This document shows positions 3,206 to 43,969 of a stretch of DNA of 64,000 bases, in pieces. Origin of the DNA: Spirochaeta thermophila DSM 6192. Its GTDB lineage: Bacteria; Spirochaetota; Spirochaetia; Winmispirales; Winmispiraceae. The DNA is taken from contig NC_014484.1 in NCBI RefSeq assembly GCF_000147075.1, forward strand, positions 1,691,501 through 1,755,500. The letters are read 5' to 3'. The notes under the pieces were generated by a model, which saw only the letters and a program-made list of their open reading frames with translations, did not search any database and had not been told where the DNA came from. A program made the translations under genes and the position numbers. Every line of letters starts with the position of its first letter. The stretch's first letter is position 1.

Positions 3206-3349
3206 AGAAACACCCCTTTCCTTCATCCTATACAAAAGGCACGAAAGAGGGAAGAGCGTAGCAGAGCCCTCCTGAGATGACATGTTGACGAGACGGCCTT
3301 CTTCCCCGCTATTGCCGGAACCCACCGGATACACTCCTCGATGTTCAGA

Positions 3350-3378
3350 TTGACAGAGCCGCCCGGATCACAGAGAAT
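3350..3378 (+). promoter_or_regulatory. Candidate sigma-70 promoter for the first MntA/HepT pair
   Basis: TTGACA at 3350-3355 is a perfect -35 box. It is followed after 17 bases by GAGAAT at 3373-3378, a weak -10. The start codon of the nucleotidyltransferase gene lies 34 bases further on. The -35 and the spacing are good and the -10 is poor. Confidence 0.4.
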
Positions 3379-3412
3379 GTAGTTAGAGAAGACTAGAGAA
3401 GGGCTGGAACAC

Positions 3413-3703
3413 ATGAGACCTCGAGAGATCCTTCATGCGAAAAAATCACTTATCCTTCGGATCTGTGAATCCTACGGGGTTTCCAACGTCCGGGTATTCG
3501 GCTCAGTCGCCCGCGGGGAGGCCACTGAGGCCAGCGATATCGATCTCCTTGTGGAATTCACACAGCCCGTCTCGCTCCTCGATCACGCCCAACTTGTGCG
3601 GGACCTGGAAAGGATCACAGGATGCAAGGTCGATGTGGTAAGCGATAAGGGGATAAAACCTCGCATCCGCGAAAGGATTCTCAAAGAGGCCAGACCCTTA
3701 TGA
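3413..3703 (+). CDS. mntA: MntA-type minimal nucleotidyltransferase (antitoxin of a MNT/HEPN pair)
   Basis: A 96-residue protein with the signature GSX10DXD of the minimal nucleotidyltransferases (GSVARGEATEASDID, about residues 30-44), which binds the metal ion and NTP. In characterised MntA/HepT systems the MNT protein transfers AMP to a tyrosine of the HEPN RNase and so silences it. The gene overlaps the HEPN gene by the four bases ATGA (3700-3703), which suggests translational coupling. The length is normal for the family and the motif is intact, so the enzyme should be active. That it is an antitoxin is inferred from its partner and from family knowledge. Confidence 0.9.
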   Translation: MRPREILHAKKSLILRICESYGVSNVRVFGSVARGEATEASDIDLLVEFTQPVSLLDHAQLVRDLERITGCKVDVVSDKGIKPRIRERILKEARPL

Positions 3704-4032
3704 GGGACTCCCGAGAGTACCTTCGTGATATGTTGGATGCCATATCCAAGATAGAGCGACATAGGGGAAAAGGATATGAGGCATTTAAAGAAAACGAGCT
3801 CATTCAGGTATGGATGCTCTATCACCTGCAAATCATTGGAGAGGCCGCTGCACGGGTGGACAAAGACCTCCGGGCACGCACCCCTTTTATCCCATGGGAG
3901 AAGATAGTGGGCATGAGGAACCTCCTCGTACACGAATATTTTGGAATAGATCTCGACGAAGTATGGTACACGGTGGAGCATGATATCCCCTCGTTGAAGG
4001 CATCCCTCGAGAGACTTCTGGACGAACGGTAA
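3700..4032 (+). CDS. hepT: HepT-like HEPN ribonuclease toxin (DUF86)
   Basis: A 110-residue all-helical protein of the DUF86/HepT family. The catalytic RX4HXY motif is present as RNLLVHEY (about residues 72-79); its Arg and His form the RNase site and its Tyr is the residue AMPylated by MntA in studied systems. The preceding GEAA and the following FGIDLDEVW are typical of the family. The gene starts within the ATGA overlap with the nucleotidyltransferase gene and has no spacing of its own. The pair is best read as a complete type VII-like toxin-antitoxin module. Confidence 0.9.
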   Translation: MRDSREYLRDMLDAISKIERHRGKGYEAFKENELIQVWMLYHLQIIGEAAARVDKDLRARTPFIPWEKIVGMRNLLVHEYFGIDLDEVWYTVEHDIPSLKASLERLLDER

Positions 4033-4091
4033 GACAGAGAGTCTCCCCATCTCCACTCGCCGGATCGTTCACCAGACCGTAAGGAGGCAGC

Positions 4092-4679
4092 ATGAACCTG
4101 TGGGCCACCATGATCACCCTTCTTCTCATCATGGATCCGTTCGGCAACATCCCTGCCTTTCTCGCCGTGCTCAAAAACTACACATCCGAACAGCGGAGAC
4201 GCATCATCATCCGAGAAATGTTCATCGCCCTGGCGGTGCTCCTCATCTTCCTCCTCTCGGGCAACCTCATCCTCGACGCCATGCAGATAAAAAAGCCCGC
4301 CCTCGGGATCGCAGGCGGGGTGGTGCTCTTCTTCATCGCCATCCGCATGATCTTCCCCGGCACCGGCTCCTATACCGAGGAGGAGTCGGAACCGCTCATC
4401 GTGCCCCTCGCCGTGCCCTTCATCGCAGGACCGTCGGCCATCGCCATGATCACCCTGCTCTCCACCCGCTACCCGGCCCACAGGCTCGAGCTCGGCCTGG
4501 CCCTCGGGGGAGCGTGGCTGGTGAGCGTGCTCGTGCTCCTCGGCTCGGAGCTCTTCCAGCGCCTCCTGGGAAAGAACGGACTGGAGGCCGTCGAGCGCCT
4601 CATGGGCATGCTCCTCACCGCCATGGCGGCCCAGATGCTCCTCGACGGGATCCGCGACTACCTCGCCCTCGCGGGATAG
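4092..4679 (+). CDS. MarC-family integral membrane protein
   Basis: A 195-residue, very hydrophobic protein with about six membrane segments (around residues 5-22, 40-60, 70-88, 105-125, 137-157 and 165-185). It contains the family stretches LLLIMDPFGNIPAFLAVL near the N-terminus and PLAVPFIAGPSAIAMI in the middle. MarC proteins lie in the inner membrane; despite the name no role in multiple antibiotic resistance has held up, and their substrate is unknown. The start ATG has a strong ribosome site (AAGGAGGCAGC). The gene stands 59 bases after hepT and could be cotranscribed with it. Confidence 0.88.
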   Translation: MNLWATMITLLLIMDPFGNIPAFLAVLKNYTSEQRRRIIIREMFIALAVLLIFLLSGNLILDAMQIKKPALGIAGGVVLFFIAIRMIFPGTGSYTEEESEPLIVPLAVPFIAGPSAIAMITLLSTRYPAHRLELGLALGGAWLVSVLVLLGSELFQRLLGKNGLEAVERLMGMLLTAMAAQMLLDGIRDYLALAG

Positions 4680-4962
4680 GGGGCGGCTACCCGGCTTCAT
4701 CCAGGAGCCGCACCGCCTCCTCCACAAGGGAGGCAAGACGCCCTCACGAATACTCCAACAAAGGTCGCACGTTCCAAGGGCTTCACACCATACTCATTCA
4801 CATGGGGGAAAGGTCGCCCCCCGTTCATCCACTCCTTACGTGGAGAGTTCCCGGGTAAGAACGTGTAAAGAAGAAAAGTGATTACCCCTCTCGAGGGAGC
4901 CCTCCAGTAACCAGTAAGGAGGAGTACACAAGGATCACCTATGCGCTTATTCATCTCATATG

Positions 4963-5304
4963 CTACACCACCCTCACTCCTCCCTCTATCATTCTCTCCA
5001 CCACGTCGTTCACCTGCTCGTATTCGCTTCGTGCATAGACGTGGGGTTCCAGGCCTCTGAGGGGGATACTCCTCTTCACCAGTGTGTACGCATCTTGCCG
5101 AGGGGGGTCTTGGTAGACCACGAGAAGATCGATATCGCTGAAAGCAGTATTCGTCCCCTTTGCGTAGGACCCAAAGAGCACTACGGATAGCACCGGCAGC
5201 GCCTCTCTCAATAGAGGGAGGGATGCTCGTATGTGGTGGAGCACCTCCTCTCTACTGTACCGAGGATAAAAGACCTTTACAGTACTCGAAGATTTCCTGG
5301 GCAT
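4963..5304 (-). CDS. Minimal nucleotidyltransferase of the second HEPN/MNT pair
   Basis: A 113-residue protein with an intact GSX10DXD motif (GSYAKGTNTAFSDID, about residues 46-60). It belongs to a different MNT subfamily from the one at 3413 and lies downstream of its HEPN partner rather than upstream, overlapping it by 53 bases in another frame. AAAGGATG lies upstream of the ATG at a workable distance. The likely role is antitoxin or modifier of the upstream HEPN protein. The mode of action of pairs with this architecture is less established than for MntA/HepT. Confidence 0.85.
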   Translation of the reverse strand: MPRKSSSTVKVFYPRYSREEVLHHIRASLPLLREALPVLSVVLFGSYAKGTNTAFSDIDLLVVYQDPPRQDAYTLVKRSIPLRGLEPHVYARSEYEQVNDVVERMIEGGVRVV

Positions 5305-5647
5305 AGGTGATCATCCTTTCGGCTTCCAGCCTCGAGTATCGGGTCCTGGGAGAACCAGAGGGGAGGGCATCGGGATACCGTGTGGGGATGTAGGCCTTGT
5401 CGAGCTCGAGTGCCATCTCGATGAGCCTCTCAGGCACTTCATAGGAGCCACTCAGTTCCTCCAATAAATCGAACACCGAATGGCCCCACGCTTCGGCTCC
5501 TATCTTCTGAAACACTGCCTTCACGGCCTTCTCAGCAGCCTGCTGAGAGGAAAAACAGGCCCAGTTGTAGAACCCTTTCTCCAGATCATGACGCGCGTGT
5601 TCGAGATCTCCTTCTGCTGCGTCAATCCAGTCTTGGCTCCGTTCCAC
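5252..5647 (-). CDS. HEPN-domain protein (PF05168 type) paired with the downstream MNT
   Basis: A 131-residue helical protein with the HEPN-family landmarks FYNWACFSSQQAAEKAVKA (about residues 26-44) and a late AYIPTRYPDALPSG. It has no RX4HXY motif like that of HepT, so RNase activity cannot be assumed. I place the start at the GTG at 5647 rather than the GTG at 5656 for two reasons: AAAGGAG then stands about ten bases away, and the related HEPN relic at 34396 begins with an ATG at exactly this position. The gene overlaps the MNT gene by 53 bases. A candidate promoter lies just upstream. Confidence 0.85.
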   Translation of the reverse strand: MERSQDWIDAAEGDLEHARHDLEKGFYNWACFSSQQAAEKAVKAVFQKIGAEAWGHSVFDLLEELSGSYEVPERLIEMALELDKAYIPTRYPDALPSGSPRTRYSRLEAERMITYAQEIFEYCKGLLSSVQ

Positions 5648-5670
5648 AGCCTGCACGCTCCTTTGACATT

Positions 5671-5699
5671 ACTTTACATCATTTTCCCTTGAGATGCAA
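5671..5699 (-). promoter_or_regulatory. Candidate promoter of the HEPN-MNT pair
   Basis: On the minus strand TTGCAT (5694-5699) is followed after 17 bases by TAAAGT (5671-5676), about 23 bases before the chosen GTG start. Both boxes match the sigma-70 consensus moderately. Confidence 0.45.
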
Positions 5700-5704
5700 A
5701 GCCT

Positions 5705-6020
5705 TCATCCCTCTCGGGCACCCTCAAGGTGGGGCGTTGAAAGTGAACTAGAGCTCGGAGGGGCAGGTCTCCCATCCCTGTGGGTGTATGGGTACGCCCA
5801 CCACAATGAGGCCTCCCGACTCATCCACATGGGCACCTCTCGATGCTCAGGATACCGATGAAGAAACGCCCTCAAGTGACGAAAGAGGTTCTCCACAAAG
5901 GTATCTGTTCCTTACCTCTTCCACTCATAGGGTAGCTCCGGATGTAGAAGAAGCGTCACTCCTTCCGCCACAGAAGCGCGGCGGGCATCCGAGGCGCAGG
6001 GGGCGTGTGCCCCGCGGGGC
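5705..6020. other. Stretch without a convincing gene
   Basis: Between the HEPN promoter and the DUF362 gene I find no gene I can support. A minus-strand frame of 63 codons (5705-5896) is rich in Arg, His and Trp (for example ENLFRHLRAFLHRY) and could be a decayed fragment. It lacks a ribosome site, and I recognise no family. Confidence 0.4.
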
Positions 6021-33018: not shown

Positions 33019-34134
33019 TCAGCCTCCCTCCGGGGTAAGAATGAGCTCAGCGAGCGTCTCCCACTTCGGGTACTCTCCCTTTTCCATGAACCGCACGACG
33101 TTCTCTCTTTTCTCTTTGAGCATGTCCCTATTATGGAACACCGTGAGGATACAACTCAAGAGCGCATAATCGTTCGCGGCTTCCACCACGAACCCAAGCC
33201 TTCCGAATTGTACCTGCTCAGGCAATCCCCCCGTGGCGGTCACCAGTACAGGTTTTCGGTAATGAAAAGCGATAGGGACAACCCCCGACTGAGTGGCATG
33301 AGTATAAGGAAGCACAACGAGATCGCACTGTTTCATGAGTGAGCAGATATCGTCTTCTGAAAGCCACCTGTTGACAAGCGAGAAAGAAGGAGAATCATTA
33401 TATTTCTTGATAAGTCGCCTTGAGACTCTATCGAGACGCCCCGTTCCTGCGAGTGTGAGATGGACTCTCTTACGGACCTCCGATGGAAGAAGATCGAATG
33501 CACGAAGGAGATAGGGAATCCCTTTGTATTTGTCGAATCGTCCCAGGAAAAGAAGCTTGAGCGCTTTCTCTTCAGCCGGAGGTGCAGCAAGTTCCATTGA
33601 ACAGGAAGAGACCCCCAGCGGAAGCAAGGGATGAGGATGACACGCGATGTTTTTCCATCCTTTTCGCAGAAGATAGTACTTGAAGTTCTCGCTCAAGACG
33701 ATACGTCTGTCGTATCTCTTCATCTCCAGAAGCTGAAGCAACCGTACCCACACGCGTTCCCCACGATGAGGGATGGGGTCATGGATGATCCCCGTAACCA
33801 AAGGCTGATGGATGCTGCGTCGTTTTAATTGTGAAATGATGTACCAGTTCAACGGATGGGTCATCGTGAACAACACGATCTCAGGTGCGAAATCGAGCAC
33901 TGCGTTGGCAATCGTTTTCGCCCTTGAGAAGAGAAGGAAGAGATCATTAAAAGGTTTGCCCGATGAAAACACCTGGAACGTCTCCACCGACAAACCGGTC
34001 CACGAGGCAAGCCCTTCCATGTTCTCAGCTACGTAACAACGCAGATCGGCACGCTCATGAAGCCGTTTCGCAAGTTCCAGGCTGAATATCGGTCCTGCTC
34101 CTTTTCTACCGAGATATACGAGACCAACTTTCAT
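33019..34134 (-). CDS. GT4-family glycosyltransferase
   Basis: A 371-residue GT-B enzyme starting [20 protein letters not shown]. The C-terminal domain has [40 protein letters not shown] and [15 protein letters not shown]. The frame stays open for a further 80 codons upstream, but that stretch runs antiphase through the decayed HEPN gene at 34268-34396, so I place the start at the ATG at 34134. It is followed by gmd two bases after its stop. It may add the first sugar after the WecA-like step, or a fucose; this is a guess from position only. Confidence 0.85.
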
Positions 34135-34267
34135 AGCCACACGCTGAACCCCTGATTTATACAGTAGAAACTCCTCACCCCTCCCTCCATCACTTTTTCC
34201 AGCACGCGCCTTCCAGCCCCGAATATCGTGTTGATATGGAGGCCTGTGCCATGTGGATGAGCCTCTC

Positions 34268-34396
34268 CCTTCACTGCCTTCCCGGGGGCCTGCCGAGAGG
34301 AAAACTGGCCCAGTTGTAGAACCCTTTCTCGAGATCATCACGGGCGTGATCGAGATCTGCTTCTGTTTCGGCAATTCGGTCCTGGTTCCGCTCCAT
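34268..34396 (-). pseudogene. Frameshifted N-terminal relic of a HEPN gene
   Basis: Reading from an ATG at 34396 gives a protein start (ERNQDRIAETEADLDHARDD, then LEKGFYNWA) that matches the HEPN protein encoded at 5252-5647 closely, and the nucleotide match is nearly as good. After NWA one T of a T-run is missing compared with the intact gene, and the frame meets a TGA about ten codons later. In the shifted frame the match continues as QAPGKAVKG and then ends abruptly. The rest of the gene and its MNT partner are gone. It lies between the WecA-like gene and the glycosyltransferase gene. Confidence 0.8.
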
Positions 34397-34399
34397 GAA

Positions 34400-35473
34400 T
34401 TACCCTACCTTCCGATGATAGGCCGCTGACACGGCAAAGAACAGAATCATGCCTCCTACACCACCTGCAAGGGCCAGGAACATTCCGAGAAAGCCTCCCT
34501 CGAGCCGCCAGTAAAGGGAAATCGCCCCCATCAGTGAGGAATAGGAAACGAGGGTAAGGAGCACCTTCCTGGAGGAAAGTCCCAAGGCGAGGAGTTTGTG
34601 ATGGATGTGTTCGTTGTCGGGCTCTCCTATGGAAATCCGCTTCCTCGTCCGCCTCAGGATGGCGGCGATGGTATCGAAAATCGGCACACTCAAAAGCAGG
34701 ATCACAGGGATGAGGGAAAGGGTGGTGATAGAAGGACCGTCGAAGAGAAAGGGTGCGACTGCGAGGCTCATACCGAGGAAGTGGCTTCCCCCATCTCCCA
34801 TGAAAATCTTCGCAGGAGGAAAGTTGAAGACGAGGAATCCTCCTATGGCGCCAAGGAGTACAAAGAGGAAGGCCGCAAGTGTCATGTCTCCTTCCAGGAT
34901 ACTCACTACCGCGAGGACCAGGGTTGCCATTCCCACCACACTCCCTGCAAGGCCGTCCATTCCATCGATGAGATTCACGGCATTCACGATCGAGACGATC
35001 CAGAATATCGAGAGGAGATAGCCCGCCATTCCAAACGGCACAGGGATGTTCCAGAAAGGCACGATGAAGGCCTCGATAGAGTATCCGCCCATGAGGACAA
35101 CTACAGAGGCAACGAAGATCTGAAGGAGGAGCTTCACCCGGGCTCTCAGAAAAAAGAGATCATCGAGGAGTCCTACCACCCACATGAGGAGGATCCCCAC
35201 TACCCCAGGGAGGACTGACGGATCGAGAAGCCATAATCGTACCTCCTCTGCCCCCATCCCGAGGAACACGAGGCCGAGGACTAAAGCCCCTGCCATACCC
35301 ACCCCACCCAAGCGGGAGATCTCCCGGGTGTGGATCTTCCTCTGATCCTTGGGGTCGAAGAGCTTGTGTCTTCGAGAAAACCTGATGACCTGCGGCATCA
35401 GGGCGATGCTCGTTATCAGCGAGATGAGTGCTCCCGGTACGATGATCAAAGCAGATCCTCCTTCACCGAGCAT
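34400..35473 (-). CDS. WecA/TagO-type polyprenyl-phosphate N-acetylhexosamine-1-phosphate transferase
   Basis: A 357-residue inner-membrane enzyme with about ten to eleven membrane segments. The family motifs are present in order: DPKDQRKIHTREISRLGG, VGLLDDLFFLRARVKLLLQ (DD metal site), NLIDGMDGLAG, FMGDGGSHFLG and the HIHHKL of the last cytoplasmic loop. It would start the repeat unit by moving a HexNAc-1-phosphate from its UDP-sugar to undecaprenyl phosphate. GAGGA stands eight bases before the ATG. It comes 29 bases after the outer-membrane barrel gene and probably leads the polysaccharide operon with it. Confidence 0.92.
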   Translation of the reverse strand: MLGEGGSALIIVPGALISLITSIALMPQVIRFSRRHKLFDPKDQRKIHTREISRLGGVGMAGALVLGLVFLGMGAEEVRLWLLDPSVLPGVVGILLMWVVGLLDDLFFLRARVKLLLQIFVASVVVLMGGYSIEAFIVPFWNIPVPFGMAGYLLSIFWIVSIVNAVNLIDGMDGLAGSVVGMATLVLAVVSILEGDMTLAAFLFVLLGAIGGFLVFNFPPAKIFMGDGGSHFLGMSLAVAPFLFDGPSITTLSLIPVILLLSVPIFDTIAAILRRTRKRISIGEPDNEHIHHKLLALGLSSRKVLLTLVSYSSLMGAISLYWRLEGGFLGMFLALAGGVGGMILFFAVSAAYHRKVG

Positions 35474-35502
35474 CTATACGGTCCTCTTCCTCAGGAAGCT
35501 CG

Positions 35503-37008
35503 CTACCACCTCACCTCCCTCTTCCACGAGATCCCCGCGAACCAGCGCCACTCGGCGCCCGCCACCATGCGGGCCCAGAGGCTGAACTCTCGCCACGAGG
35601 CCTGGAGGGTGAGGATGTGGTAGACCTGGTCGGGACCGGGAGAAAGGGCTGAGGGATCGACCTCGGTCGTATCGGTACTCCGCACGCTCTCAGGCCAGCC
35701 GTCCCAGAACCACTTCCACCGCACCTCGTCCCCATCCTTCACCGTTCCCTTTATTAACACATTATACTCCAGGCCGCAAGCAATTTCTGCACGATTGAAG
35801 GAGCCTCCCACCGAGGCCATGTGGGCATCGGGGCCATAGATGAATCCCAGGGGGTAGTCCACCAGTATCCTGCTCGGGCTGGTGTAGTTGTCGATGTAGA
35901 AGTGACGGACGTTCACGTGGAGGTAGGGAAGATAGCTGGTGACGTACATCCACTCGCTGGTGTAGTCGTACTCGGCCCACACCTGCCATCCGGGCCGGGT
36001 CCACTCGAGGCCGAGGTTGAAGCCGTAGGCGCCGGGCTTGTAGTCCACCCCGGATTCGGTGAGGGGTACGTCGGCGTCATCGAACGAGGCCTCGCCGTAG
36101 AGGGTGAGGGAGTCCCACAGGGTGAGGTCCCCATCGAGGACGAAGACCACGTTGGAGTATCCTTCGCCGTAGGTGTTGTGATAGTACATGAGGGGGCTCA
36201 CATCGAGGAGATCGGGTGCCTTGCCTCCTATGACGTTGAGCTCGCCTATCCCGAGGCGCCAGAAGGGCCCCAGGAGATCGAGCCTGTGGGCCGCGATGGT
36301 CTTGTAGGGTTCGGAGAAGGTTCGTCCCTCCGAGAGGTAGTCGTGGCAATAGGTCTGAATCTCCTTCTCTTCGTTCCCCAGAAGCGGAGAGGAGGAGATG
36401 ACGTGGAAGGTGTACTGGAAGGAGGGGGTCCGCCACCGTGCGGTGAGGTTGTCCTGGTAGGTGGTGGGGGAGATGGTGAGGGGATACCGGGCCCTGCCCC
36501 ATTTGAGGGGGAACCTGCCTGCGGCGAGAAAGAAGGGCTCCGAGGCGTAGTAGAGGTAGGCGGTGTGGGGAAAGGTCATGTCGAAGGAGTAGCGGGTGAT
36601 GTCGAAGATTCCTGTGAGCGAGTCGGTAAGGTAGTTGGTGGAAGGATAGGTGGCACGGGAGAGGTATTCCTTCTGGACGGGGATCTCAATGTAGAGCCCG
36701 AAGGGGCCTGCGTGTCCTGAAACCCGAAGCAGGAGGAAGGGGGGGATGTGTTCGGAGAGGTAGAAGAGGTGCTCGGCGGGGTTTACGGGTACGCCTGCGG
36801 CCCAGTAATCGCCTCGGACCAGGTCCACCGGCCAGTCGCCCACTCCCACGAAGGGCTGGAACCGAAGGAGAAGGCCGGCCGTACGGGGGAGTCCCGCCCA
36901 CTCCACCGGGACGGGCGAGGCGAAGGGATGGTCTGCAAGCTGAGCATGGATCGGAAGGGAGACGAGGAGGCTGGAGGCGAGGCACAGGGAAGGGAGAAAC
37001 GAGCGCAT
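35503..37008 (-). CDS. Outer-membrane beta-barrel, capsule assembly Wzi-like
   Basis: A 501-residue protein with a signal peptide (RSFLPSLCLASSLLVSLP, cleaved near IHAQ), alternating aromatic strands such as RHFYIDNYTSPSRILVDY, and a C-terminal Trp, as expected of a barrel. FFLAAGRFPLKWGRARYPL and YYHNTYGEGYSNVVF recall the capsule-assembly Wzi family, which holds surface polysaccharide at the outer membrane. The start is the ATG at 37008 with GGAGGAG seven bases away; an in-frame TTG at 37026 would lie inside the promoter. It is the first gene of the polysaccharide locus. The family call is moderate. Confidence 0.7.
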   Translation of the reverse strand: MRSFLPSLCLASSLLVSLPIHAQLADHPFASPVPVEWAGLPRTAGLLLRFQPFVGVGDWPVDLVRGDYWAAGVPVNPAEHLFYLSEHIPPFLLLRVSGHAGPFGLYIEIPVQKEYLSRATYPSTNYLTDSLTGIFDITRYSFDMTFPHTAYLYYASEPFFLAAGRFPLKWGRARYPLTISPTTYQDNLTARWRTPSFQYTFHVISSSPLLGNEEKEIQTYCHDYLSEGRTFSEPYKTIAAHRLDLLGPFWRLGIGELNVIGGKAPDLLDVSPLMYYHNTYGEGYSNVVFVLDGDLTLWDSLTLYGEASFDDADVPLTESGVDYKPGAYGFNLGLEWTRPGWQVWAEYDYTSEWMYVTSYLPYLHVNVRHFYIDNYTSPSRILVDYPLGFIYGPDAHMASVGGSFNRAEIACGLEYNVLIKGTVKDGDEVRWKWFWDGWPESVRSTDTTEVDPSALSPGPDQVYHILTLQASWREFSLWARMVAGAEWRWFAGISWKREVRW

Positions 37009-37025
37009 GTTGGTCTCCTCCTGCA

Positions 37026-37031
37026 ACTATA
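37026..37031 (-). promoter_or_regulatory. Extended -10 promoter of the polysaccharide locus
   Basis: On the minus strand TGC precedes TATAGT (37026-37031), an extended -10 element, 17 bases before the chosen ATG of the Wzi-like gene. No good -35 is visible. A leader of about ten bases would just include the GGAGGAG ribosome site. Confidence 0.35.
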
Positions 37032-37126
37032 GCAAAGGCCGGAAAGAAAATACAGCATCATAAAACACCTCAATCAAGGTGGGGGCCACTGTGCCCCTCC
37101 TTCGAACCGGGGCTCATAGGAACGAG

Positions 37127-37438
37127 TCAAGGATCAGTCTGATCTGCTCCTTGCTGTGTAATAGTCTTCCATACGAGATGATAATCCACCCCAAAATAGG
37201 CATGAATCAGTTTATCCCGCATTCCCGCCATCTCTTTCCAGGGGATATGGGGATATCTCTCTCGAAGCTCAAGAGGTATTTGTTTCGCAGCTTCTCCTAT
37301 TACCTCGAGTTTTCGAAGAACAGCGCTCGATGTCTTATCGTCAGTCATAAACTCATTGATATCCATTCCTTCGATGAAGGATTCTATACTCTCTATGGCA
37401 GCAGAGATATCCTTCATGTAGAGGGTATAATCTCTCAT
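37127..37438 (-). CDS. hepT: HepT-like HEPN ribonuclease toxin (DUF86)
   Basis: A 103-residue DUF86 protein. The RX4HXY motif is complete (RDKLIHAY, about residues 79-86), preceded by [22 protein letters not shown] and followed by FGVDYHLVW. It is similar in layout to the protein at 3700 but clearly not a recent copy. Its ATG overlaps the stop of the nucleotidyltransferase gene by ATGA. It is predicted to cut RNA unless AMPylated by its MNT partner, as in characterised pairs. Confidence 0.9.
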
Positions 37439-37740
37439 ACAAAAACAACGTCCTTACGCACGCTTTCTTGGAGGTTCTCCCTGAGGGCTCTAGAGGATAC
37501 AAGATCGACAGGACGGTGGAGGTGCCTTTCAAGATACTGTGAAGCCCCCACAAGATCAAAGAGATCTGCCTCTTCCTCGAACTCCACGAGCAAATCAATA
37601 TCACTCGATTGGCTCTGCTCATCCCTGGCAAAAGATCCGAACAATGCGATGCTCCGGATTCGATAGCGGTCTTCGAGCACAGGTTTAAGGGTTCTCAAGA
37701 GACTGATGAGTTCCTGTCGGTTCATCTTCTCATTCTTCAT
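37435..37740 (-). CDS. mntA: MntA-type minimal nucleotidyltransferase
   Basis: A 101-residue antitoxin-type protein with GSX10DXD as [15 protein letters not shown] (about residues 33-47). The usual ARG after GS-aromatic is ARD here, a mild change next to the metal site. I start at the ATG at 37740 behind a G-rich stretch (GGGGGGGGAA); the in-frame ATG at 37794 would add 18 lysine-rich residues not seen in the family. The gene is coupled to hepT by ATGA. This is the third such pair in the window. Confidence 0.88.
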
Positions 37741-37821
37741 AGGCACGAGTTCCCCCCCCTTGTGCTGTTTCTTCTTCGATCCTTCTTTAAGCATACACCA
37801 CCTGTCATCCTCTTCGCCACT

Positions 37822-38907
37822 CTACCCCTCCCCTCTCGCATCCTGTACGGCCGCGTGTCGCACGCAGCGTCGCCTCCGCCGCTTCCGCCGCCTCTTGCGC
37901 AGCACCCGCCTGAGGGCCGCATCCACGTCGCGGTTGGGGGGAGTGAAGGGCCTGAGGAACTCCTTGAAGGCCCGGTAGAGCTCCTTGAAGGGGAGCTCCC
38001 TCATCCCGTCGCGCTCCACGAAGAGCCTCGCAAAGGGCACGATGAGGGCGTCGCGGTCCACTTCCCCTTCCCGCACCAGCCTGTCGAGCCGTTCGAATTC
38101 CTCGCGCCACCGCTCGTGGGGTATCCCCGGCCCGGCAGCACCCAGTACCTCATGCACGTGAGGCAGGAGGTGGTCGAACAGATGGAACCTCTGCAGGGCG
38201 TCCCACACCGACGACGCCTCGCCGCAAGCCAGGATTTTGTAGATCTCCTCGGTGAGCCGCGAGGCCGAGACCTCTTCGAGCCGCCAGGCATCGTCCCGTA
38301 TCTTCCGCACGAGCTCTTTGGGCATCTCGAGCTCCATCCGGGCGTGATACTTCACGGCCCTGAGCATCCGCACCGGATCCTCCTCGAAGATCCGATCGAG
38401 CGGGATGATGGGGACGAGCCTTCGTTCCCTCACGTGGGTGAACCCGTCGACGAAATCGAGGATCTCCTCGGAGAAGGGATCGTAGTAGAGGGCGTTCACC
38501 GTGAAGTCCCTGCGGAAGGCATCTTCCTCGATGCTGCCGTACGCGTTGGGGTCGTCGGCTCGGGCCGATCGAAACGTGGTCACCTCCACGTACTCCTCCT
38601 TCGTCACGTACACGTGGACCAGCCTGAATCTGCGCCCTATCACCCGCGCATAGGGGAAGAGTCGTTTGATCCTCCCCGGGGTGGCGCACGTGACGATGTC
38701 GAAGTCCTTCGGGTGTTTTCCCAGGAGGAGATCCCTCACCGCGCCGCCCACCACGTAGGCGGCGTGCCCCGCCTTCCTCAGTCGGCGTATCACCATGAGG
38801 GCATGGTGGTCGATCGCCTCTCGCCGTATGCCATGCTCCTCGACCCCGTACACCCTGGCAAACGGGACCGGTGTCCCATCCTCGGTCATTCGATAACGTA
38901 TCCGCAC
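37822..38907 (-). CDS. pcnB: Poly(A) polymerase / tRNA nucleotidyltransferase family
   Basis: A protein of about 361 residues with a class II nucleotidyltransferase head: YVVGGAVRDLLLGKHPKDFD (DxD metal site), VTTFRSARADD, RRDFTVNALYYDPFSEEILD and RAVKYHARMELEM. The C-terminus ends in a very basic run (about 12 Arg/Lys within 15 residues), like the RNA-binding tail of E. coli PcnB, which favours poly(A) polymerase over CCA-adding enzyme. The start is uncertain: GTG at 38907, TTG at 38916 and ATG at 38889 are all possible; spacing from GGGAAGG favours the GTG. It is divergent from hisS. Confidence 0.87.
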   Translation of the reverse strand: MRIRYRMTEDGTPVPFARVYGVEEHGIRREAIDHHALMVIRRLRKAGHAAYVVGGAVRDLLLGKHPKDFDIVTCATPGRIKRLFPYARVIGRRFRLVHVYVTKEEYVEVTTFRSARADDPNAYGSIEEDAFRRDFTVNALYYDPFSEEILDFVDGFTHVRERRLVPIIPLDRIFEEDPVRMLRAVKYHARMELEMPKELVRKIRDDAWRLEEVSASRLTEEIYKILACGEASSVWDALQRFHLFDHLLPHVHEVLGAAGPGIPHERWREEFERLDRLVREGEVDRDALIVPFARLFVERDGMRELPFKELYRAFKEFLRPFTPPNRDVDAALRRVLRKRRRKRRRRRCVRHAAVQDARGEG

Positions 38908-39010
38908 GTTGCCCAAGCCTTCCCTTTATTCACACAGAAATATATGATACACAAGAGTATCTTCCACATTCTATACGAAAAGATGGGAAAAACACAAGGA
39001 GAGGGGATTC

Positions 39011-40324
39011 ATGATACAACCTCGTGTTCTCAAAGGATTTAGAGACTTCCTCCCCGATCTCGAGGCGAGGAAGAAGTCCATCGTCCGCACCCTCGAGGAG
39101 GTGTTCACTTCGTTCGGCTACCTTCCCATCGATACCCCGGTACTCGAATACGCGGAGATCCTCCTGGGGAAGTCGGGTGGCGAGACAGAGAAACAGGTGT
39201 ACCGGTTCACCGACCACGGAGGGAGGGACGTGGCGCTCAGGTTCGATCTGACGGTGCCCTTCGCCCGCTTCATGGCCCAACACATGGCCGAGCTCTACCT
39301 CCCCTTCAGGAGGTACCACATCGCCAAGGTGTTCCGTGGAGAGAATACCCAGCGGGGCCGCTACCGGGAGTTCATGCAGTGTGACTTCGACATCGTGGGG
39401 CCTGACAGCACGTCGGCCGACCTCGAGGTGCTCCTCATCATGCAGAAGGCCCTCGCTTCGCTGGGGATGGAGCGGTTCACCATCCACCTCTCCCACCGCG
39501 GGGTGCTCCAGGACTTCCTCGCCCGGCTCGGGGTGTCTGAACCGGTGGAGGTGTTGCGCACCGTGGACAAGATCCGCAAGATCGGCCGGGAGAAGGTGCG
39601 GGAGACGCTCGCACAGCTTTCCGACGAGGAACGGGCCGGCCGTATCCTCGACTTCATCGCCCCAGGTTCGGAGCCGGAGGAGGCGCTCTCCCGCATGGAG
39701 GAGGGGGTGGGTGCCGACAACCCACACCTCGCGAGGCTCAAGGAGATCTGGGCGGTCATAGGGGAGTTGGGGCTCGCCGGGTTCTTCACCATCGATCCCT
39801 CCATCACCAGGGGGCTCGACTACTACACGGGGGTGGTGTTCGAAACCTTTCTTTCGGATCTGCCCGACATAGGTTCGGTGTGCTCCGGCGGACGGTACGA
39901 CAACCTGGTGGGGCTCTACAGCACGCAGAGCATGAGCGGGGTGGGGGCGTCTATCGGGCTCGACCGGCTCATGGCGGCCATGCAAGAGCTGGGCATGCTC
40001 GAGGCGATCCCCACCATGGCGCCCGAGGTGCTGGTGGTGTGCATGGAGGAACGGTTCCTCGCCCACTACCACGGGGTGGCCGCAGCCCTGCGGGCCCGCG
40101 GTGTACGGACCGAGGTATACCCACAGGCACGCAAGCTGGGTCAGCAGTTCTCGTATGCCGAGAAGAAGGGGATACCGTTCGCCCTCATCATGGGTGAAGA
40201 CGAGATCGCCGCCGGCACCATGGCACTGAAGGATCTCGTCGCCCGCACCCAGCGCGTGGTACAGGGCCTCGAGGAGGTGGTGGACGCGGTGGAGTACCGA
40301 CGTGAGGGTGTGCATCCGTCCTGA
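39011..40324 (+). CDS. hisS: Histidyl-tRNA synthetase
   Basis: A 437-residue class II synthetase. Seen are the N-terminal KGFRDFLPDLEARKK, motif 2 region FRRYHIAKVFRGENTQRGRY with EFMQCDFDIVG, the histidine-specific RGLDYYTGVVFE and motif 3 SGVGASIGLDRLM, then the anticodon-binding domain (about residues 335-437). The length is close to the bacterial norm. AAGGAG precedes the ATG. The DEAH helicase gene follows after 45 bases on the same strand and may be cotranscribed. Confidence 0.95.
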   Translation: MIQPRVLKGFRDFLPDLEARKKSIVRTLEEVFTSFGYLPIDTPVLEYAEILLGKSGGETEKQVYRFTDHGGRDVALRFDLTVPFARFMAQHMAELYLPFRRYHIAKVFRGENTQRGRYREFMQCDFDIVGPDSTSADLEVLLIMQKALASLGMERFTIHLSHRGVLQDFLARLGVSEPVEVLRTVDKIRKIGREKVRETLAQLSDEERAGRILDFIAPGSEPEEALSRMEEGVGADNPHLARLKEIWAVIGELGLAGFFTIDPSITRGLDYYTGVVFETFLSDLPDIGSVCSGGRYDNLVGLYSTQSMSGVGASIGLDRLMAAMQELGMLEAIPTMAPEVLVVCMEERFLAHYHGVAAALRARGVRTEVYPQARKLGQQFSYAEKKGIPFALIMGEDEIAAGTMALKDLVARTQRVVQGLEEVVDAVEYRREGVHPS

Positions 40325-40369
40325 ATATGTGTATGTTTGTCACAAGAATTTTCGATCATGGAGTAACAT

Positions 40370-42889
40370 GTGTCTATGGATCCCAAAAAGCTGCCGGTAT
40401 ATCAGCAAAAGGACAAGATTCTCGAAGCACTGCAGACGCACCAGGTGATCGTGGTCGAGAGCCCGACGGGTTCTGGAAAGACGACGCAGCTTCCCATCAT
40501 CCTCCATGAGGCGGGGTACACCCACGAGGGGATGGTGGGTATCACGCAACCTCGACGGATCGCCGCCGTATCGGTGAGCGACTTCATCGCCAAGGAGCTC
40601 GGCACGAGTGTCCCCGGCCTGGTGGGCTACAAGATGCGGTTCGAGGACATGACCACCCCGTCCACACGCATCAAGGTGATGACCGACGGTATCCTGCTCC
40701 AGGAGCTCAAAGGGGACTACGAGCTCTCACAGTATTCGGTCCTCATCGTGGACGAGGCCCATGAGCGGAGTCTCAACATAGACTTCATCCTGGGACTCCT
40801 CAAACAGATCGTGCAGGTACGGCCCGAGTTCAGGGTCATCATCTCCTCGGCCACCCTCAACACCCGGATCTTCTCCGAATACTTCTGGGACTGCCCCATC
40901 ATCTCCATAGATACCCGCACCTATCCGGTGGAGGTCGTCTACGATCCCCCCGATCCCAACCTGGGCGAAGATGCGGTGTACGACAAGATCGTAGAGATCG
41001 TGGAAAAGGTGGTGGTGAAAGAGGAGCGGGAAGGGGATATCCTCATCTTCCAGCCGGGGGAGGCCGACATAAAGGCGACCATCGGGGCACTCCTCTCCAC
41101 CCCTTTCGCCCACAGGCTCTACGTCCTCCCTCTCTATGCGCGACTCAGCAAGGAGGAACAGGAGGCGGTCTTCCCTCCCGCCCCTCCGGGCAGGACGAAG
41201 GTGGTGGTGGCCACCAATATCGCGGAGACGAGCGTGACCATCGACGGGATCACCACGGTGATCGATCCGGGTACGGCCAAGATCAACTACTACAACCCCA
41301 AGACCTTCACCTCCTCCCTGATACAGATGCCCATCTCCAAGGCGTCGGCCGAGCAGCGACGCGGGAGGGCCGGGCGTACACGGCCGGGGGTGTGCTACCG
41401 CCTCTATACGGAGGAGGACTTCCAGAACCGGCCCGCCTTCACCGTGGAGGAGATCTACCGCACCGACCTCTCCGAGGTGGTGCTCCGCATGGCCGACCTG
41501 GGGATACGCGACTTCGCCTCGTTCGACTTCATCTCCCCGCCGGAGCGCGCCGGCATCATCTCTGCAGTGGAGACCCTCCACCTCCTCGACGCCCTCGACG
41601 AGGGGAACAACCTCACCCCCATCGGCCAGATGATGGTGGAGTTTCCCCTCCTGCCACGGCACTCGCGCATGATCCTGGAGGCGGCCTACCGGTATCCCGA
41701 GGTGATGCGTGAGGTGCTCATCGCCGCGTCGTTCCTCACCACCAAGAATCCCTTCCTCCTCCCCCAGGACGAGGAACTGGAGGCCCGGAGCGCCCACCAC
41801 AGCTTCAGGGACAAGCTGGGTGACTTCGTCTCGTATCTCAAGCTCTTCCGCGCCTACCAGGCGGCGCGGGACAAGGAGCGGTTCTGCCGGCGCTACTACC
41901 TCGACGAGCGGGTGATGGACGAGATCCTCAACATAGAGGGTCAGCTCGAGCAGATCGTGGTGGACCTGGGGCTCCCCCTTCAGGAAGGAGGCCCCCTCAA
42001 GCACTACCTGTGCGCCGTGGCGCGTGGTCACATCCAATTCGTGTGCATCCGTTCGGGGAAGAACACGTACCGCACGCTCACCGCCGACAAGATAGAGATA
42101 CACCCCGGGTCGGTCATGTACCGGGAGCGGCCGGACTACATCGTAGCCGGCGAGATCGTGCGGACGAGCAAGACCTTTGCCCGGTCGGTCTCCCCCCTCA
42201 AGGAGGAGTGGCTCGACGAGATCGCCCTGGGACTCGCCCAGAAGCTCGCCGAAAAGGCGAAGAAGAAGGCACTGAAAACCGAGAAGGGAAGGAGGAGAAA
42301 GGCCGAGCAGGAGATCACCCTGGGACGCCATACCTTTCCCCTCGCCACGTCCAAGAGCAAGAAGAAGATGGTGATCCTCCCCTGGAAAGAACTCAGGGAG
42401 GCCGTGGTTCGGGAGGGGGCCGTGCTCCCGCACTTCTATCGTGATCTCAAGGGCAAGATCCTCTACCAGAACTACGAGATCATGTCGGGTGAAAAGCTGG
42501 AAGAGCTCGTGGAGGTCGCGCGGCTCGTGCGCCTCCCACACGATTTCACCGAGCGCTGGCCCCGGGGGAAGAACTTCTCCGTGCCCCGTATGCTGAACGA
42601 CCTGGTGAAGCACCTTCCCCTCGTGCTCAAGGTGGCGCCGGTGAAGAAGCAGGGCAAGCGCCTCGGCTTCCTCGCCCTCAGGACCGACGGGATAGGGACC
42701 TTCTGGTTCTCTGCGATGCGGAACTACCTCATGGCGGCAGAAGAAAGCCTCGCAGCCCTGGAGTACCTCATCGACCAGCTCGCCTCGGTAGAGGACCCGG
42801 CGATACACGAGACCGTGAACAGGATATACCGCAAGCTCTCGAAGGCCGTACTCCTGGAAGAGGAACCGGTGGAGGGGGAGGAGGAGTAG
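40370..42889 (+). CDS. hrpA: DEAH-box ATP-dependent RNA helicase, HrpA-like
   Basis: An 839-residue helicase: Walker A SPTGSGKTTQ (31-40), ITQPRRIAA, the DEAH box in VLIVDEAHERS (near 127), SSATLN, motif V ATNIAETSVTI and motif VI QRRGRAGRTRPG. A helicase-associated and OB-fold region (about 430-600) follows, with the eukaryote-like ELSDLVLRMADLG type reading LSEVVLRMADLG. The last 200 residues contain a basic patch and an unassigned domain. It is shorter than E. coli HrpA (about 1,300). The start is GTG at 40370 with GGAG six bases upstream, or the ATG six bases later. It ends with no gap to convergent aroB. Confidence 0.9.
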   Translation: MSMDPKKLPVYQQKDKILEALQTHQVIVVESPTGSGKTTQLPIILHEAGYTHEGMVGITQPRRIAAVSVSDFIAKELGTSVPGLVGYKMRFEDMTTPSTRIKVMTDGILLQELKGDYELSQYSVLIVDEAHERSLNIDFILGLLKQIVQVRPEFRVIISSATLNTRIFSEYFWDCPIISIDTRTYPVEVVYDPPDPNLGEDAVYDKIVEIVEKVVVKEEREGDILIFQPGEADIKATIGALLSTPFAHRLYVLPLYARLSKEEQEAVFPPAPPGRTKVVVATNIAETSVTIDGITTVIDPGTAKINYYNPKTFTSSLIQMPISKASAEQRRGRAGRTRPGVCYRLYTEEDFQNRPAFTVEEIYRTDLSEVVLRMADLGIRDFASFDFISPPERAGIISAVETLHLLDALDEGNNLTPIGQMMVEFPLLPRHSRMILEAAYRYPEVMREVLIAASFLTTKNPFLLPQDEELEARSAHHSFRDKLGDFVSYLKLFRAYQAARDKERFCRRYYLDERVMDEILNIEGQLEQIVVDLGLPLQEGGPLKHYLCAVARGHIQFVCIRSGKNTYRTLTADKIEIHPGSVMYRERPDYIVAGEIVRTSKTFARSVSPLKEEWLDEIALGLAQKLAEKAKKKALKTEKGRRRKAEQEITLGRHTFPLATSKSKKKMVILPWKELREAVVREGAVLPHFYRDLKGKILYQNYEIMSGEKLEELVEVARLVRLPHDFTERWPRGKNFSVPRMLNDLVKHLPLVLKVAPVKKQGKRLGFLALRTDGIGTFWFSAMRNYLMAAEESLAALEYLIDQLASVEDPAIHETVNRIYRKLSKAVLLEEEPVEGEEE

Positions 42890-43933
42890 TCACTCCACGA
42901 ACTGCTTCACCACGTCTGTGAGGAGGGTCTCCTCCGGGTCCACCAGGAGGGTGTCTCCCATTCCACGCTGGACCACACACCGGATCTTCCCTCGCTGCTT
43001 CTTCTTGTCCATGCGCATGGCCTCGAGAAGAGCGGGAGGGGAGATCCCTCCGCCCACAGTGGAGGGATACCCATAGGCATCGAGGAGGGCCGTGATCCTC
43101 TCCGCATAGGCCGCATCGGTGAGGCCGAGCCTCCTCCCCAGATCCAGGGCACAGCGGATACCCCAGGCCACCGCCTCGCCGTGCGTGAAACGGGAGAAAC
43201 CGGTGACCGACTCGAGGGCATGTCCAAAGGTGTGCCCAAGGTTGAGGAATGCCCGCATCCCCCCTTCTCTGAAGTCCGCCTCCACCACCCTGGCCTTCAC
43301 CCTCAGGGCCCGCTCCACCATCTCCTGCACGAGCGTCTTCTCCCGAAGGAGTATCCGATCCCGCTCCTCCTCCAGGAGGCCGAAGAGCCGTTCGTCGCCC
43401 AGCATGGCGCTCTTTATCACCTCTGCGAGTCCGCTCCGGTACTCCCGCTCGGGCAGACTCGCCACGAAGGGCACCGCAAGGCGCACTTCCCGCGCGGGAT
43501 AGAAGGTGCCCACCATGTTCTTGTAGGAAAGGAAATCTATGCCTGTCTTCCCGCCGAGAGCCGCATCCACCATGGCGAGCAAGGTGGTGGGGACGAGGAC
43601 CACCTCTATCCCTCGCATGTAGAGCGAAGCGGCAAAGGCGGTCACGTCGGTGACCGCACCTCCCCCCACCCCGAGGAAGGCCGCATCCCTGCCGAAGCCT
43701 CGGGAGAATCCTTCCTCGAGGATGCGCTCCACGCTCTCCCAACGCTTCCCCTGCTCCCCGGGGGGAAGGATCACCTGCGGATACCTGAGGGTGGGAGGGA
43801 GGAGCGCCGCCACATGCTCGTCGGTCACGAGGAGCACGTCCTTGTCTTCGAACCCCGAAAAGACCTCATCGAGTGAGCTCCGTACCACCGTGGTGGTGAA
43901 CTCCCCAAGCCGAACCGAGAATAGCCGTTCCAT
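42890..43933 (-). CDS. aroB: 3-dehydroquinate synthase
   Basis: A 347-residue NAD- and metal-dependent enzyme of the shikimate pathway that converts DAHP to 3-dehydroquinate. It shows PPGEQGKRW, GVGGGAVTDVTAFAAS, VPTTLLAMVDAALGGKTGID, RSGLAEVIKSAM, LNLGHTFGHALE and HGEAVAWG, with the metal-binding Glu and two His in the last three. The frame is open 83 codons further upstream, into the chitinase terminator, so I start at the ATG at 43933, where the homology begins. A promoter ends seven bases before it and no proper ribosome site fits. Its stop abuts that of the helicase gene with no spacing. Confidence 0.93.
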   Translation of the reverse strand: MERLFSVRLGEFTTTVVRSSLDEVFSGFEDKDVLLVTDEHVAALLPPTLRYPQVILPPGEQGKRWESVERILEEGFSRGFGRDAAFLGVGGGAVTDVTAFAASLYMRGIEVVLVPTTLLAMVDAALGGKTGIDFLSYKNMVGTFYPAREVRLAVPFVASLPEREYRSGLAEVIKSAMLGDERLFGLLEEERDRILLREKTLVQEMVERALRVKARVVEADFREGGMRAFLNLGHTFGHALESVTGFSRFTHGEAVAWGIRCALDLGRRLGLTDAAYAERITALLDAYGYPSTVGGGISPPALLEAMRMDKKKQRGKIRCVVQRGMGDTLLVDPEETLLTDVVKQFVE

Positions 43934-43940
43934 GGCCTCG

Positions 43941-43969
43941 AGTATACCAGGAGGGGAGATTCCTCTCAA
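43941..43969 (-). promoter_or_regulatory. aroB promoter, apparently giving a leaderless mRNA
   Basis: On the minus strand TTGAGA (43964-43969), a 17-base spacer and TATACT (43941-43946) are followed seven bases later by the aroB ATG. Transcription from this promoter would begin at or within a base or two of the start codon. Confidence 0.55.

Follow-up and report, generated by a model that had tools for sequence, protein, structure and literature searches.

Remnants of a HEPN/MNT gene pair between a WecA-type gene and a glycosyltransferase gene of Spirochaeta thermophila DSM 6192

The window, i.e., the whole stretch of 64,000 nucleotides analysed here, corresponds to positions 1691501-1755500 of the single contig of 2,472,645 bases of S. 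thermophila DSM 6192. It includes a gap of 265 bases located between a WecA-type gene and a glycosyltransferase gene, both carried by the minus strand, and this gap holds the remnants of a HEPN gene and of its MNT partner. Intact paralogous copies of both genes are found about 5 kb from the start of the window and were used for comparison, as was another genome of the same genus, called G001 below (Table 1).

Table 1. Features of the locus and sequences used for comparison (window positions unless a G001 locus is named)
Feature	Position	Strand	Remarks
WecA-type glycosyl transferase family 4 (PF00953)	34400-35473	minus	immediately precedes the relic; without a close counterpart in G001
Glycosyltransferase group 1 (PF00534)	33019-34134	minus	likely start ATG 34134-34132
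HEPN relic, 5' part	34268-34396	minus	ancestral start codon to about codon 43; one base gone from a T-run
HEPN relic scrap	34246-34267	minus	20/22 to 5431-5410
HEPN relic scrap	34229-34245	minus	13/17 to 5397-5381; weak alone, backed by order
HEPN relic scrap	34207-34228	minus	19/22 to 5341-5320
MNT C-terminal scrap	34173-34206	minus	28/34 to 5005-4972 (last codons of the MNT gene)
Intact HEPN gene (PF05168), paralogous copy	5252-5647	minus	used for comparison
Intact MNT gene (PF01909)	4963-5304	minus	partner of the intact HEPN gene; start codon provisional
Block without alignment to G001 save for the relic	34135-35516		syntenic flanks on both sides
G001 block with a different initiating transferase	L012 3016-5744		compared with window 34134-35516

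The HEPN part of the relic begins 3 bases past the stop codon of the WecA-like gene. In a local alignment, positions 34395-34268 of the minus strand pair with the beginning of the intact HEPN gene in two blocks (77/91 and 31/37) separated by one missing T, that is 108 of 128 aligned bases (83-84%). The score of this alignment is 107.1 while the maximum reached by 500 dinucleotide shuffles is 33.4, so that the pairwise comparison proposed by the initial annotation reveals a similarity far beyond chance. A repeat search gave 85% over 95 bases, and the only other match of the gap sequence in the whole genome is the intact HEPN gene (83% over 132 bases, E 7.6e-33). The similarity to the HEPN start, its place, its strand and the base lost from the T-run had thus been correctly recognized; with 83-85% identity, the two sequences are not nearly identical as had been stated. 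The early stop predicted in the HEPN frame does occur, after 41 codons, and a Pfam search with the 41-codon product returned no match.

The remainder of the gene had been reported as absent. Actually, the stretch 34134-34275 aligns with a score of 34.3, above all 500 shuffles (maximum 25.5) and also above all 360 random places of the window (maximum 22.1). It includes three scraps of the HEPN 3' half, colinear with the gene (34267-34207), followed by a scrap of the last MNT codons whose score was reached by none of 2000 shuffles. The remnants of both genes keep the order and strand of the intact pair, most of MNT and much of HEPN being deleted. The relic is therefore what remains, over about 225 bases, of a HEPN+MNT pair that has collapsed.

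A DNA search with the relic in 21 genomes gave matches in two of them, the present genome and G001. In G001, the gene orthologous to the glycosyltransferase (97% identical) is preceded by a HEPN relic. The alignment of this relic with the intact unit spans 5717 to 5349 and takes in about 70 bases of leader (79% in a further comparison). This second relic is longer than the first one, still has a 117-codon open frame and matches PF05168 with 46.5 bits; it has lost the HEPN C-terminal part and the whole of MNT. Between it and the glycosyltransferase gene, neither an MNT scrap nor a HEPN 3' end was detected, the best match being reached by 619 of 1000 shuffles. It should be emphasized that the G001 copy is called a relic because of its truncation and its lost codon bias, the frame itself being uninterrupted. 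The ordered remnants of both genes on the same strand, joined to the HEPN relic found at the same place in G001, support the proposal that a HEPN/MNT pair formerly resided here. The intact pair to be sought at this locus in related genomes was not found in the one other genome carrying the locus. A search for the glycosyltransferase over 41 genomes (E 1e-20) gave matches in only 2, so no additional genome of this set could show the locus.

The distribution of differences among codon positions was compared for the intact genes and the relics. The intact HEPN orthologues of the two genomes differ over 396 bases at 3, 1 and 17 first, second and third positions, versus 6, 7 and 9 for the present relic and the intact copy (Fisher p 0.012) and 15, 17 and 23 for the G001 relic (Fisher p 0.004). 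By these counts, both relics are without the third-position bias that selection maintains in the intact gene. The present relic is homologous in DNA to a PF05168 paralogue, the MNT gene adjacent on the same strand is reduced to 34 bases of its 3' end, and frames that are open and under selection are lacking, given the early stop and the codon-position counts. It is filed as a pseudogene, i.e., a decayed member of the HEPN/MNT module and not a working module. Most likely it has no protein function and serves at most as a spacer between two genes.

In a tree of 131 columns and 15 rows, which include the 11 closest loci chosen by hand from the 80 relatives listed out of 315, the two relics cluster together with a support of 94/94, just under the level starred by the program and with a bootstrap that has not settled. 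Trees in which either relic joins the intact copies are worse by 6.7 log units (AU p 0.048). In the automatic 15-row alignment, the present relic is misaligned beyond about column 131; only columns 1-131 therefore served for the tree and the counts, and 3 of 9 shared sites (columns 144, 155 and 158), located in the misaligned part, were left out. The present relic is identical to the intact HEPN gene of its own genome at 108 of 130 positions and to the G001 orthologue at 109 of 130, while these two intact genes agree at 126 of 131. The two relics share only 100 of 130 positions (77%), less than each of them shares with an intact copy. At the sequence level, this low mutual identity fits a fast and separate decay without proving it.

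Taken together, the data very probably reflect a pseudogene of a HEPN (PF05168)/MNT (PF01909) pair, present before the split from G001, which then decayed separately in each line. The homology, the order of the remnants, the loss of the frame in the present genome, the loss of codon-position bias and the occurrence of a HEPN relic at the corresponding site of G001 are observed. According to this scenario, a HEPN/MNT pair, which we infer to have been intact and active here, would have stood in front of the glycosyltransferase gene, on the border of the polysaccharide cluster, prior to the split, and a single insertion would lie behind both relics. In the present line, a base of the T-run would have been lost and several internal deletions would have joined the HEPN remains to the last MNT codons. 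In the G001 line, the HEPN 3' end and the whole MNT gene would have been lost. The collapsed pair is probably older than the split. Some points fit this scenario less well: the relics are just 77% alike, the tree is made from 131 columns, the middle scraps are short and the G001 frame is open.

A partial copy of the pair located at 5 kb, or a gene conversion from this pair into the site, within the present lineage, could also account for 83% identity over 132 bases on the same strand of the same genome. This origin is nevertheless quite unlikely, as the relic is equally distant from both intact orthologues, which are themselves almost the same, and as G001 carries a relic at the same site; furthermore, scraps of both genes spread across about 225 bases speak for a complete unit that decayed where it stood. 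The recombination between the two sites evoked by the initial annotation is not supported, in view of this equal distance and of the grouping of the present relic with that of G001. A recent recombination or conversion with the 5 kb pair was rejected on account of the equal distance.

It is very improbable that the locus encodes a working truncated HEPN protein (the 41-codon frame, or the 117-codon frame in G001) or that an extension of 80 codons belongs to the glycosyltransferase. The proximity of the 41-codon frame to the WecA-like stop, 3 bases away, would make translational coupling possible, but these 41 codons give no Pfam match and the third-position bias is lost. In the same way, a frame is open from TTG 34374 into the glycosyltransferase gene and, judged by eye, 34134 is preceded by a weak-looking ribosome-binding site, whereas the ATG at 34134 is where the homology to G001 sets in. 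Moreover, the frame open from TTG 34374 is neither the HEPN frame, before or after the lost base, nor the MNT frame, and is therefore most simply explained as open by chance. These two features support, in outline, the earlier view that the open frame upstream of 34134 would be non-coding, and 34134 is most likely the start of the glycosyltransferase. Finally, a sequencing error in an intact gene, suggested by a lesion that is a single base of a T-run, can be dismissed almost entirely in view of the number and size of the lesions (several deletions ranging from tens to hundreds of bases, with substitutions at all codon positions); resequencing could alter that single base alone.

Besides the relic, the locus differs between the two genomes by its initiating transferase. 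The present genome and G001 align over 13045-34134 of the window (90.6%) and over 35517-43951 (95.0%); between these segments, only the relic aligns. The WecA-type coding frame starts 44 bases from the right edge of this block and stops 3 bases short of the relic. In G001, where the HEPN leader is retained, the block carries two other genes instead, one for a NAD-dependent epimerase (PF01370) and one for a Bac_transf protein (PF02397). PF02397 matches no place in the present genome and one in G001, and PF00953 matches two places in the present genome, one of which is the WecA-type gene, and one in G001. The WecA-type gene has a G+C content of 0.554, the two G001 genes have 0.494 and 0.475, and the cluster 13045-34133 has 0.476, which weakly hints that the G001 state of the block is the older one. 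The HEPN/MNT pair could have travelled with the exchange of initiating transferases or provided homology for it, the wreck marking the breakpoint, although this is doubtful. The relic marks the edge of the block, and the start of the surface polymer would differ between the two genomes if the families act as named.

The polysaccharide cluster itself (13045-34133) has a G+C content of 0.476 versus 0.61 for the flank 35517-43951, as expected of an acquired cluster.

The relic belongs to a known module and is ordinary as a pseudogene; the transferase difference next door offers a more useful lead. The relic itself is one more pseudogene of a module that thermophiles commonly carry, supports the neighbouring start at 34134 and seemingly illustrates how one module decayed along separate routes in the two related genomes.

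PMC3710099 describes MNT-HEPN modules as toxin-antitoxin systems that thermophilic bacteria have often received by transfer, and HEPN proteins lacking the R-x4-6-H motif are scored as toxins there as well. The module being mobile and dispensable, the decay of one unit is expected. PF05168 matches number 6 in the present genome and 8 in G001 (relic included), and none was found in G002, a genome of the same family. A scan of genome contigs reported 315 relatives, and the 80 listed include Thermus, Chloroflexi, Acetothermia and archaeal records. A PADLOC search with the HEPN proteins returned no match.

The window holds another MNT/HEPN pair, of the PF01909/PF01934 kind, at 3413-4032; it carries the motif RNLLVH and its MNT matches PADLOC PDC-S09 (E 8.2e-36). 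The region 3262-5711 comprises this pair, a gene that we take to be MarC-like, and then the HEPN/MNT pair. It is differently placed with respect to 5717-5997 in G001 (L011), where a partial copy of 4357-4740 and more MNT/HEPN genes come after it.

With regard to known systems, the MntA/HepT (DUF86, PF01934) pairs, such as the one present in the window, have a related architecture. However, the intact paralogue of the relic belongs to PF05168, not PF01934, and the R-x4-6-H motif of MntA/HepT was not found in it. This intact HEPN protein matches PF05168 with 119.8 bits and TM0613 (1o3u) with an E value of 8.9e-59. The closest systems are the PF05168 (HEPN-T)/PF01909 modules of thermophiles, together with the HEPN protein TM0613: unlike them, the relic encodes no complete domain, its DNA matching that of the intact paralogue.
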